A stretch of DNA of 64,000 nt from Lysobacteraceae bacterium. Its GTDB lineage: Bacteria > Pseudomonadota > Gammaproteobacteria > Nitrococcales > AK92. Position 1 is the first letter of the stretch; every line of letters begins with the position of its first letter. The stretch spans positions 42,392 to 106,391 of the forward strand of contig JAAYIK010000029.1 in assembly GCA_012523465.1 (NCBI GenBank), written 5' to 3'. Shown here in pieces: positions 55,906 through 60,784 of this stretch. A model generated the notes under the pieces. It was not told the origin of the DNA. It ran no database searches and was given only the letters and a program-made list of their open reading frames with translations. The position numbers and the translations under genes were made by a program.

Positions 55906-55960
55906 CTGTCTCGGGCGGGCATTGGCGCTACGCTGGGCTTGCGCGGATGACCGGTTTTGA
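55906..55960. other. Gap between modA-like gene and the small RNA terminator
   Basis: No gene. modA has no plus-strand T-run terminator here; the GC-rich RNA structure immediately downstream could also stop plus-strand transcription. Confidence 0.3.
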
Positions 55961-56120
55961 AATAAAAACGGACTGCCGAGACATTCCTGTCTTCATCACC
56001 ATCCCTTGGTGGCGGCAGTCCTGCGAGCGGCCTTCCTGGCCGTACGCGTCGTCCCTGATACCTTCGTTTCTTTAGTGTTTACCGCATCCGCTGCGGCTCG
56101 ATCACTCTCCTCCCTAAGAC
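55961..56120 (-). ncRNA. Probable CsrB/RsmZ-family CsrA-sequestering small RNA
   Basis: Minus-strand RNA with repeated GGA motifs in hairpin loops: CCGCA-GCGGA-TGCGG (56096-56082), CGGCC-AGGAA-GGCCG (56042-56028), CACCA-AGGGA-TGGTG (56011-55997; plus-strand arms 55997-56001/56007-56011) and AGACA-GGAA-TGTCT (55992-55979). The last two sit inside a perfect 9-bp closing stem GGACTGCCG / CGGCAGTCC (56021-56013 with 55978-55970), making a three-way junction followed by GTTTTTATT, an intrinsic terminator. Single-stranded GGA also occurs in GGGAGGAGAG (about 56114-56105) and AGGGACG (56055-56049). This is the design of CsrB, RsmY and RsmZ, which titrate CsrA/RsmA. The 3' end is clear; the 5' end is not, and the transcript may start anywhere from about 56110 to 56200. 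Confidence 0.7.
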
Positions 56121-56379
56121 GCCATCAACTCTAGCCAAGCGGGACGGTGAGCGTAACCGCGGGAAATCCTAGGCCACCCCAGGAATGTCCCAAGGGGGCT
56201 GCCGTCGCGGCCCAAGTGCGCTGCGCGACCGGTCGGTGAGAGCGCAGCGAGGGAAGCATGACGAAGCGACGAGGTAGGTGGAAGCGGCAGCATGACCTCG
56301 GTCGTTGCCTAGCTCGTCAGCTTGGGCGGGATGCCCCTACCATATTTGCCAACGTCTCAACGGGTCGGAGCGTACAACA
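56121..56379. other. Upstream region of the small RNA and of the 152-residue hypothetical gene
   Basis: No gene. On the minus strand TTGGGA, 16 bp, TAGGAT (about 56193-56166) could be a promoter for the small RNA. The GacA-type palindrome TGTAAG-N6-CTTACA is absent. Inverted repeats such as CGGT-GAGCGTA-ACCG (about 56145-56159) may bind a regulator. Confidence 0.3.
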
Positions 56380-56838
56380 ATGGAAACACGCATCGGCGAG
56401 TGGTATCTGTGCGAAAGCTACATCCAGGAACCCGTGCTGGTGGAGGCACTGGAGAGCGATAAGATCCTGGTGCGCTACCTGACCACGGGCAGAACCCGCT
56501 GGCTGGGCTACCCCAGGATCTGGTACGCCTGCAAGCCGAAACCCATCAAGCGCGATGTCAGCTACGATCCGCAGACCCAGCTCATCACCCTGACGTCCCG
56601 CGACGGCTCCGAAGAGCCCCAGCAGCTTGGCCTGGCGCAACTGCGGGCCCAGCTGTTTCCGCAGGCGGCACGGCCGCGGCTGGTGCGCCCGCGCCGTGCG
56701 GCGCAGCCGGCAGCAGGCATCGCTGCAGGTTTCAACGAGCCGGCCGACTGGGACAAGGACGACCAGGTGTGGCCGCTGGATGACGACATCGACGTCAGCG
56801 ACGATGAGGCGGACTACGCGCTCGACATGAGCCTGTAG
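56380..56838 (+). CDS. Hypothetical protein, unknown family
   Basis: 152 residues from ATG 56380 (GGAG about nine bases upstream). The N-terminal 75 residues look like a small beta barrel (GEWYLCESYIQEPVLVEAL, KILVRYLTTGRTRWLGYPRIW), perhaps Tudor/SH3-like; the middle is basic (RPRLVRPRRAAQ); the last 30 residues are strongly acidic (DWDKDDQVWPLDDDID). No signal peptide or membrane segment. Acidic-basic architecture hints at nucleic-acid or ribosome contact, but this is speculation. Confidence 0.75.
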   Translation: METRIGEWYLCESYIQEPVLVEALESDKILVRYLTTGRTRWLGYPRIWYACKPKPIKRDVSYDPQTQLITLTSRDGSEEPQQLGLAQLRAQLFPQAARPRLVRPRRAAQPAAGIAAGFNEPADWDKDDQVWPLDDDIDVSDDEADYALDMSL

Positions 56839-56884: not shown

Positions 56885-57667
56885 CTACTGGTGCTTCTCG
56901 ACGAAGGCTCGCTCGATGACATAGTCGCCAGGCTCGCCGATGCGGGGCGAGATCTTGAAGCCCAGTTTGTCGAGACGCGCAGTGGTGTCGGCGAGCATGC
57001 TCGGGCTGCCGCAGACCATGGCCCGGTCTCGGGCCGGGTCCAGCGGCGGCAGGCCGATGTCCTTGAATAGCTTGCCGCTGTCGATGAGCTCGGTCAGTCG
57101 GCCACGGTTGCGGAACGGCTCGCGGGTGACGGTCGGGTAGTAAATCAGTTTCTCCCGGACCATGTCGCCGAAATATTCGTTTTGCGGCAGTTCCTTGGTG
57201 ATGTAGTCGGCGTAGGCCAGCTCGCTGACCAGGCGCACACCGTGGACCAGGATGACCTTGTTGAACCGCTCATAGGTCTCCGGGTCCTTGATGATGCTCA
57301 TGAACGGCGCCAGGCCGGTGCCGGTGCTGAAGAGATAGAGATTCTCGCCCGGCAGCAGGTCGTGCAACAGCAGCGTCCCCGTCGGCTTGCGACTAACGAA
57401 GAGCGGGTCGCCTACCTTGATGTGCTGTAGCCGGGAAGTCAGGGGGCCGTTCGGCACCTTGATGCTCAGGAATTCCAGATGATCGTCGTAATTCGCGCTG
57501 ACGATGCTGTAAGCGCGCATCAACGGTCGGCCGTCGACCTCGATCCCGATCATCACGAACTGGCCATTCTGGAAGCGCAGCGTCGGATCGCGCGTCGTGG
57601 TGAAGCTGAACAGGGTGTCATTCCAGTGATGCACGCTGAGCACGCGCTCGGTACCAACAGTCGACAT
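56885..57667 (-). CDS. fpr: Ferredoxin--NADP+ reductase
   Basis: 260 residues. FAD-binding RAYSIVSANY (51-60), GPLTSRLQHIKVGD, NADP-binding STGTGLAPFMSIIKD and the C-terminal VEKH tail of bacterial Fpr. Exchanges electrons between NADPH and ferredoxin or flavodoxin, often in oxidative-stress or iron-sulfur repair. A TATAAA element about 45 bp upstream on the minus strand is a possible -10 box. Confidence 0.95.
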   Translation of the reverse strand: MSTVGTERVLSVHHWNDTLFSFTTTRDPTLRFQNGQFVMIGIEVDGRPLMRAYSIVSANYDDHLEFLSIKVPNGPLTSRLQHIKVGDPLFVSRKPTGTLLLHDLLPGENLYLFSTGTGLAPFMSIIKDPETYERFNKVILVHGVRLVSELAYADYITKELPQNEYFGDMVREKLIYYPTVTREPFRNRGRLTELIDSGKLFKDIGLPPLDPARDRAMVCGSPSMLADTTARLDKLGFKISPRIGEPGDYVIERAFVEKHQ

Positions 57668-58348: not shown

Positions 58349-58682
58349 CAGCCGGGCTGCTGCCAGCGCGGCAAGTGCGCCCATTATACGCCACCTTGCC
58401 GCCCCCGGCCCGCTGCATATGTCGCAACACGGCCCAGTTGTTATAGATATAGGGGACGGGCACGGTTGCCGCGGTAGCGCAGGGCCTGGCCCGCCGGACA
58501 GCGAGCAATCGGTCCGGTGCGCCGTGCGCCAGGCCACGGCCCTGTTGCTCCCTGCACGGTGGAGCGGAGAGCTGCTGGCATTCCTCCATGCGCAACTGGC
58601 ACGATGAAAAAGTAGGAGGAAAGCGCGGGCGGCCATGGGAATGGCCGCCTGTCGCCGTTCATGTGGAGGGGGTTTGCGGTCG
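58349..58682. other. Intergenic region ahead of the NarL-type regulator
   Basis: 334 bp without a credible gene. AGCAGC-CGG-GCTGCT just after the thioesterase stop could end its transcript. A short AT-rich patch (GTTGTTATAGATATAG, about 58438-58453) is a possible promoter core without a good -35. A strong 9-bp hairpin lies at 58628-58649. Confidence 0.3.
58628..58649 (+). promoter_or_regulatory. Leader hairpin with GGGA loop upstream of the NarL-type regulator
   Basis: GGCGGCCAT-GGGA-ATGGCCGCC, nine perfect base pairs, 33 bases before ATG 58683. The loop contains GGA, and the Shine-Dalgarno region (GTGGAGGGGG) contains another; such pairs are typical CsrA/RsmA targets. Confidence 0.45.
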
Positions 58683-59348
58683 ATGATACGTATCCTCATT
58701 GCCGACGATCATCCCGTCGTACGCAATGGACTCAAGCAGATGATTTCCGAGCAGGGTGACATGGAAGTCGCCGGCGAAGTGACCAACGGCGACGAACTGA
58801 TGGCACACCTGCGGCAGGAGCTGCCGGATGTGGTGCTTTGCGACATGTCCATGCCCGGGCGCAGTGGGATCGATCTGATCAAGGCGATTAAGGCGCAATG
58901 GCCGCGGCTGCCGTTGCTGGTCCTCAGCGTGCACGAAGACGACATGTATGCCGTGCGCACCATCAAGGCGGGCGCCATGGGCTATGTCACCAAGTCCAGT
59001 CCTTCCGAACAGCTGCTGGCGGCGATCCGCCGGGTTGCCTCGGGGCGTCTTTACATCAACGAGGACGTGGCGGAGAAGCTGGCGCTGCAGGTCATCGGTG
59101 GCGATCAGCTGCCGCATACCGAGCTTTCCGACCGCGAGCATCAGGTGTTCATCATGCTGGCCGAGGGACTGACGGTGTCGGAAATCGCCAAGGAGCTGCA
59201 TCTCAGCGTCAAGACCATCAGCACCCACAAAACCAACATCATGCAGAAGATGAATTGGACCAACATGGCTGAGCTGATCCGCTACGCCATCGAGCACAAC
59301 CTAGTCAACATCCCCTCCTCCGGCCCGCGCTCCAGCGACAAGCGCTGA
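58683..59348 (+). CDS. NarL/FixJ-family response regulator
   Basis: 221 residues from ATG 58683. Receiver domain (ILIADDHPVVRNGLKQMI; acceptor Asp54 in LCDMSMPG) and C-terminal LuxR-type helix-turn-helix (ELSDREHQVFIMLAEGLTVS, KELHLSVKTISTHKTNIMQK). No cognate kinase gene adjoins it. GacA belongs to the same family, but this sequence alone does not identify it as GacA. Confidence 0.92.
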   Translation: MIRILIADDHPVVRNGLKQMISEQGDMEVAGEVTNGDELMAHLRQELPDVVLCDMSMPGRSGIDLIKAIKAQWPRLPLLVLSVHEDDMYAVRTIKAGAMGYVTKSSPSEQLLAAIRRVASGRLYINEDVAEKLALQVIGGDQLPHTELSDREHQVFIMLAEGLTVSEIAKELHLSVKTISTHKTNIMQKMNWTNMAELIRYAIEHNLVNIPSSGPRSSDKR

Positions 59349-59581: not shown

Positions 59582-60784
59582 TTGCCTAAGACCTCTTCGC
59601 TCCAGCTGATTCTGCTGCCTGTCTACGCCGCGATTCCGGGCGCCGTCGCCGTCGTCGTGGCGGGCGGTCTGGCCTGGCTGCCGTTGGCGGTCGCAGTGAT
59701 GATGATCGCCGGGCTGCAGAGCCTGCACGGCCGCAGGCAGCTCGCGCGGCTGCAGTCGCTGGCAGCAGCTGCGAAGGAGCCCATGGATGCCCGGGACGGC
59801 GACGCGGGAACGCCGCCAAGCGCGACGCCTCCGGGGGCGGCGGCTTTCGCCGACGGCATCGCCGAGATGGGGCGGGCCCTGGCGCCGGTGTGGGCACGAC
59901 AGATCAATACCGCTCGGGAGCAGACCGAGACCGCCATCGTCGCGCTCAGCAATCAATTTGCCAGCATCGTGCAACAGCTGGACGACGCCATTGAGGTTTC
60001 CAAGCAAGTGGCGGGCGACGGCGAAAGCGTCGCTTCGGTGCTGGCTTCCAGCGAAGCCGCGCTGCTGAAGGTGGTGAACACCCTGCGGGTGGTGTTGGAT
60101 GAGAAGGTCGCGCTGATGCGTGAGCTCGACAGCCTGATGGGCTTCACCGCCGAGCTCGATCAGATGGCGCACGACGTCGCTCGGGTCGCCGCCCAGACCA
60201 ACCTGCTGGCCCTAAACGCTGCCATCGAGGCGGCGCGCGCTGGCGAGCAAGGACGCGGCTTCGCCGTGGTGGCCGACGAAGTGCGGCAGCTCTCGCAGCT
60301 GTCCGGGGCTACCGGCAAGCGCATCGGTGAAAAGATCAAGATCATCAATGAAGCCATCGCCTCGGCCTTCAGCGCCGGGGAGGCGTCGACGGAGCGCGAC
60401 AGCAAGGCGGTTGCAGGCGCCGAGGAGACCATCCGGCAAGTGCTGAATGAATTCCGCACGGTGGCCGATGGCTTGAGCAAGGCCAGCGAAACGCTGCGTC
60501 GGAGCAGCGCCAGCATCCAGAACCAGATTTCGGGCGCCATCGTCGAGCTGCAGTTCCAAGACCGCAGCAGTCAGATTCTGTCCCATGTCTGCGACAACAT
60601 CCGCGCCGCCGCAGACGAGCTCCTGCGGGTCCAGCAGCGCTTCCAGGCCGAGGGCGTGCTGGTCGCCCCCAACACGGAGGCGCTGCTGGTGGGGTTGGAG
60701 CGCTCCTACGCGATGGCGGAGGAGCGGCAAAACCACAACGGCGAGGCGACCACGACGGCGGTCGGGGATGTCACTTTCTTTTGA
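59582..60784 (+). CDS. Membrane methyl-accepting chemotaxis-like protein without a ligand domain
   Basis: 400 residues, TTG start with GGAGG five or six bases upstream. Two closely spaced membrane helices (about 8-45) with almost no periplasmic loop, a variable linker, then a coiled-coil signalling domain whose tip reads [37 protein letters not shown]. No HAMP or sensory domain. It likely senses an internal or membrane signal and couples to the CheA encoded downstream. Confidence 0.88.

Follow-up and report, generated by a model that had tools for sequence, protein, structure and literature searches.

A predicted CsrA-sequestering RNA with conserved GGA-loop hairpins on the minus strand of an intergenic locus

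The presence of several short hairpins displaying GGA in their loops on the minus strand of an intergenic locus raises the question as to whether this locus encodes a stand-alone regulatory RNA of the Csr/Rsm class, or whether the hairpins reflect chance structure, the tail of a longer transcript or a DNA repeat. Within the window, by which we mean the whole 64-kb stretch of DNA that was analysed, we regard it as highly likely that the minus strand from about 56121 to 55960 is a stand-alone non-coding RNA of ~160 nt, predicted to bind and sequester CsrA. This reading is built on computed features, namely the structure, its covariation, the conservation of the GGA motifs, the further copies of the gene and the presence of CsrA and UvrY/BarA homologs in the genome, with the comparison among relatives weighing most.

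Structure and setting of the minus-strand locus

The predicted CsrA-sponge RNA gene (55960..56121, minus strand, as are all elements described here) was delimited using the fold, the homologs, their covariation and an alignment with its ortholog in a same-genus genome, with an approximate 5' end and a 3' end set at the U-run. The first-pass annotation had described four GGA-loop hairpins; these are present in the fold but their number is five, with one additional unpaired GGA and a total of eight GGA motifs in the 164-nt window copy. Hairpin 1 (TCTT-AGGGAG-GAGA, 56106..56119), placed by the fold together with the ortholog alignment (ortholog TCTC-AAGGAC-GAGA), is the weakest and is absent from the minimum-energy fold of a long segment. 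It is followed by hairpin 2 (GCCGC-AGCGGAT-GCGGT, 56081..56097; ortholog GCCGC-ATCGGACTC-GCGGC), by the unpaired GGA in CAGGGACG (56050..56057), which lies outside any hairpin and has the same sequence in the ortholog, and by hairpin 3 (CGGCC-AGGAA-GGCCG, 56028..56042), both hairpins being taken from the fold. Folding also confirmed the proposed three-way junction, in which a perfect 9-bp stem (5' strand GGACTGCCG, 56013..56021; 3' strand CGGCAGTCC, 55970..55978) encloses hairpin A (CACCA-AGGGA-TGGTG, 55997..56011) and hairpin B (AGACA-GGAA-TGTCT, 55979..55992), each of these elements being backed by both fold and covariation. The closing stem leads into UUUUUAUUU, with the U-run TTTTTATTT read from the sequence at 55960..55968. 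Hairpin B (GACAGGAATGTC) had been called close to the CsrA SELEX core and indeed differs by a single mismatch from the consensus ACARGGAUGU (PMC7652899); if its innermost A-U pair opens, the loop has the favoured size of six bases, with AC/GU closing it.

Five GGA hairpins in 164 nt compares with a mean of 0.82 in shuffled sequences, none of 1000 shuffles reaching five, and folding gave z-scores of -3.5 (97-nt core) and -2.8 (164 nt). Clusters of four GGA hairpins per 160 nt nevertheless recur in the 64-kb window (nine start points, both strands), so the motif count alone is insufficient and the case for an RNA is made from the U-run, the non-coding location and conservation. On the modelled fold the closing stem and U-run are probably an intrinsic terminator, which a simple terminator scan of the locus left unflagged because the scanner permits loops of 3-8 only.

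The locus is intergenic with both flanking genes on the plus strand, a setting that rules the RNA out as the leader or riboswitch of a gene that follows it. Taken together, the intergenic position, the neighbours on the opposite strand and the stem with its U-run are the features of a stand-alone non-coding gene with an intrinsic terminator. Directly upstream in the sense of the RNA, and on the opposite strand, lies a predicted 152-aa protein (56380-56838, plus strand) with no Pfam match.

Homologous copies, covariation and promoters

A DNA search across 59 genomes gave matches of 80% in G001, a genome of the same genus, and of 78% on a separate contig of the window's own genome, the latter being a paralog; plasmid records gave no match. 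The G001 copy is an ortholog by position, since it and the window copy are each found upstream of two genes on their own strand, one aldose-epimerase-like and one for a TonB-type receptor. Conservation with the ortholog peaks between 56057 and 55965 and is partial through hairpins 1 and 2. A covariance model, R1, built from the window copy, ortholog and paralog (scoring 99.8, 93.6 and 87.7 bits respectively as its own source sequences) further detected a second copy lying in tandem in G001 (39.4 bits, E 7.5e-7) and, in G005, a genome from another family of the order, a homolog (33.2 bits, E 4e-5), the latter scoring 69 bits in a model, R2, that includes it. The G005 homolog is located after an rluB-like gene and has five GGA hairpins, while the paralog folds with a z-score of -6.2; in both, additional GGA hairpins precede the junction. 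The tandem copy (L002, 154-225) sits ~140 nt upstream of the ortholog and has no U-run, so both G001 copies may belong to one transcript of ~350-390 nt with ~17 GGA motifs.

In order to examine covariation, the window copy, ortholog, paralog, tandem copy and G005 homolog were aligned to the model's own structure. Covarying stems in relatives, proposed by the first-pass annotation as a check, were found: 7 of the 22 base pairs have changed on both sides with pairing kept, and standard pairs make up 97.2% of pair cells, with 0 of 500 shuffles as good. Sliding the pairing partners reduced pairing to 28-44%, and RNAalifold, making its own structure prediction from the same five-sequence alignment, returned identical helices. 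Loss of the GGA loops while the stems drift had been named as the pattern that would speak against a regulatory RNA; the opposite is seen, as GGA is kept in all three core loops in five out of five sequences.

These data bear directly on the likeliest alternative, that the locus is an intrinsic terminator only, or structured intergenic DNA, with GGAs falling in the loops by chance. The four-hairpin GGA clusters elsewhere in this GC-rich window and the want of a good promoter at the window copy are in its favour, but it does not fit loop GGAs that are kept while the stems covary in five sequences, nor the extra upstream GGA hairpins of the paralog and the other-family homolog. As the U-run is on the minus strand only, the structure is moreover no terminator for the preceding plus-strand gene, and we judge this explanation improbable.

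A search for a consensus sigma-70 promoter upstream of the window copy found none. A weak TAGAGT (56128..56133, minus strand), 7-8 nt upstream of hairpin 1, is suggestive of a -10 element, with TATCCT at about the same place in the ortholog. The paralog is preceded by a sigma-70 promoter with 11/12 matches (TTGACC-18-TATAAT), whose end falls right in front of the first GGA hairpin, in support of a stand-alone gene ~150 nt long. A site scan for GacA sites with at least 8/12 matches found none upstream of the window copy, ortholog or paralog and gave 9/12 upstream of the G005 homolog, where CCTAAGCATTTGCCTACA matches the published GacA site of rsmY, TGTAAGCATTCTCTTACA (PMC4353343), at 13 of 18 positions.

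The paralog also counts against a second alternative, that the structure is a 3' UTR fragment or antisense RNA, perhaps still able to bind CsrA, that arises when transcription continues beyond the minus-strand gene at 57667-56885. This gene is the next upstream on the minus strand and could read through from its end at 56885, and predictions for Vibrio fischeri include CsrA-binding RNAs derived from 3' UTRs (PMC5568370). However, ~765 nt and the opposite-strand gene at 56380-56838 intervene, the paralog has a strong promoter of its own and the copies lie in differing gene neighbourhoods, which leaves read-through a shade less probable again than a chance terminator. That the locus is a dispersed palindromic repeat and not an RNA gene is most improbable of all, since the 78%-identical second copy and the tandem copy in G001 that would suit a repeat are set against just two strong copies in a 3.0-Mb genome, an asymmetric layout with a one-sided U-run and a conservation of GGA loops for which a DNA repeat gives no reason.

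Strong homologs occur in only 3 of the 54 genomes of the order despite CsrA being found in 50 of them, pointing to a family that is narrow or fast-diverging. Covariance searching of 369 genomes sampled from the class gave weak hits, of which those read were mostly in long open frames or hairpin repeats and were rejected. One locus of G005 (L119, minus strand, ~1501-1650) was retained for its four closely spaced GGA hairpins; it is a second, differently built candidate sponge RNA near an FKBP-type isomerase gene, with TATACT and a CTTACA half-site upstream, and it raises the possibility that genomes usually have two sponge RNAs. Possible diverged members are L126, L124, L009 and L019. At L019 (G019, 1516-1583) two strong AGGGA hairpins are enclosed by a long stem that no U-run follows, and this may be a relative in another family with a score at noise level. 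At L009 (G003, minus strand, 1501-1584), also a possible diverged member, a 13-bp stem encloses GGGCAAGGAAGCCC and is followed by U-rich sequence.

Csr partners and a proposed mode of action

The window's genome contains homologs of the partners in a Csr system. The best hits of a ferredoxin reductase were betaproteobacterial and gave no guidance on taxonomy; the host is probably a gammaproteobacterium. CsrA is present in a single copy whose first 38 residues are those of E. coli CsrA 1Y00, and the RNA-binding residues L4 and R44 are both conserved. The UvrY/GacA ortholog lies directly before uvrC and is 58% identical to E. coli UvrY. A BarA-like hybrid kinase with Hpt is found ~12 kb away, at 600 bits, a score below the NCBIfam curated cut-off. 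The window itself encodes a NarL/UvrY-type response regulator (58635-59348, plus strand) that is 35% identical to UvrY and is followed at 59582 by a gene with chemoreceptor-like sequence; this regulator was rejected as the UvrY ortholog, which is the one elsewhere beside uvrC.

In the CsrB/RsmZ logic GGA loops hold CsrA dimers and so titrate CsrA off mRNAs (PMC7652899). By analogy we infer that the window RNA is transcribed under promoter control, binds CsrA and sequesters it. Each GGA loop would be a candidate site for CsrA; five to six such sites could accommodate two to three CsrA dimers on a single RNA, which may free mRNA targets from CsrA. Synthesis is probably under the BarA-UvrY (GacS-GacA) system of this genome, and as the genome has a second such RNA the two sibling sponges probably act together. 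Transcription would probably end at the three-way junction, with the 9-bp closing stem and U-run doubling as terminator. A bolder proposal, which we hold to be rather unlikely, is that this is an order-specific sponge family in which the two-site three-way junction is itself the transcription terminator; if so, CsrA binding at the junction could link sponge occupancy to termination or to 3'-end stability.

CsrA is widespread in the order, in the 50 genomes noted above, yet G000, G001 and G005 are without a CsrB or RsmZ recognised by Rfam. For at least three genomes the five-sequence covariance model puts a name to the presumed missing CsrA antagonist, and it offers a start for Rfam-type searches. 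It also illustrates that GGA-loop RNAs evolving too fast for similarity search are recoverable through covariation.

Comparison with known Csr and Rsm RNAs

The locus had originally been described as a CsrB/RsmZ-type RNA, which holds for the class, by its architecture of GGA loops and by covariation, and does not extend to membership of a known family. An Rfam scan at gathering and lax thresholds returned no family at threshold and only a sub-threshold rsmX, so that searches for CsrB, RsmX, RsmY and RsmZ, suggested by the first-pass annotation, failed to place it, the nearest being rsmX at 14-21 bits versus 56. RsmX (RF02144) was the best Csr-type Rfam hit, at 14.1 bits for the window copy and 20.7 bits for the paralog (gathering 56), and the window's own genome yielded no rsmX. 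PrrB_RsmZ (RF00166, gathering 44 bits) had no match in G000, G001 or G005; the RsmZ and rsmX models were above threshold in no control genome, making these genome-wide negatives weaker. The CsrB model (RF00018, gathering 71 bits) gave no match, the E. coli control being positive, and neither RsmY nor RsmZ had an Rfam hit in the window. A search of the literature on CsrA RNAs in Ectothiorhodospiraceae returned nothing relevant. As it matches none of the Rfam CsrB, RsmX or RsmZ models we assign the RNA to Csr/Rsm by architecture, and it very probably represents a new family of this functional class, specific to its gammaproteobacterial order and separate from CsrB, RsmX and RsmZ.

The Pseudomonas RsmX shares the GGA-loop hairpins and its consensus, a 114-position model, also has two hairpins inside a closing stem, but its terminator is a distinct hairpin that follows the enclosed pair, whereas in the window RNA it is the closing stem that leads into the U-run. 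RsmY and RsmZ (RF00195, RF00166), also from Pseudomonas, have eight GGA motifs, several of them in loops, in 118-133 nt (PMC4353343), similar to the eight GGAs found here. The enterobacterial CsrB and CsrC (RF00018, RF00084) likewise use repeated GGA loops to titrate a near-identical CsrA and likewise occur as two siblings per genome; CsrB carries 22 GGA motifs (PMC7652899), and the window RNA differs from this pair in being less than half the length with far fewer sites.
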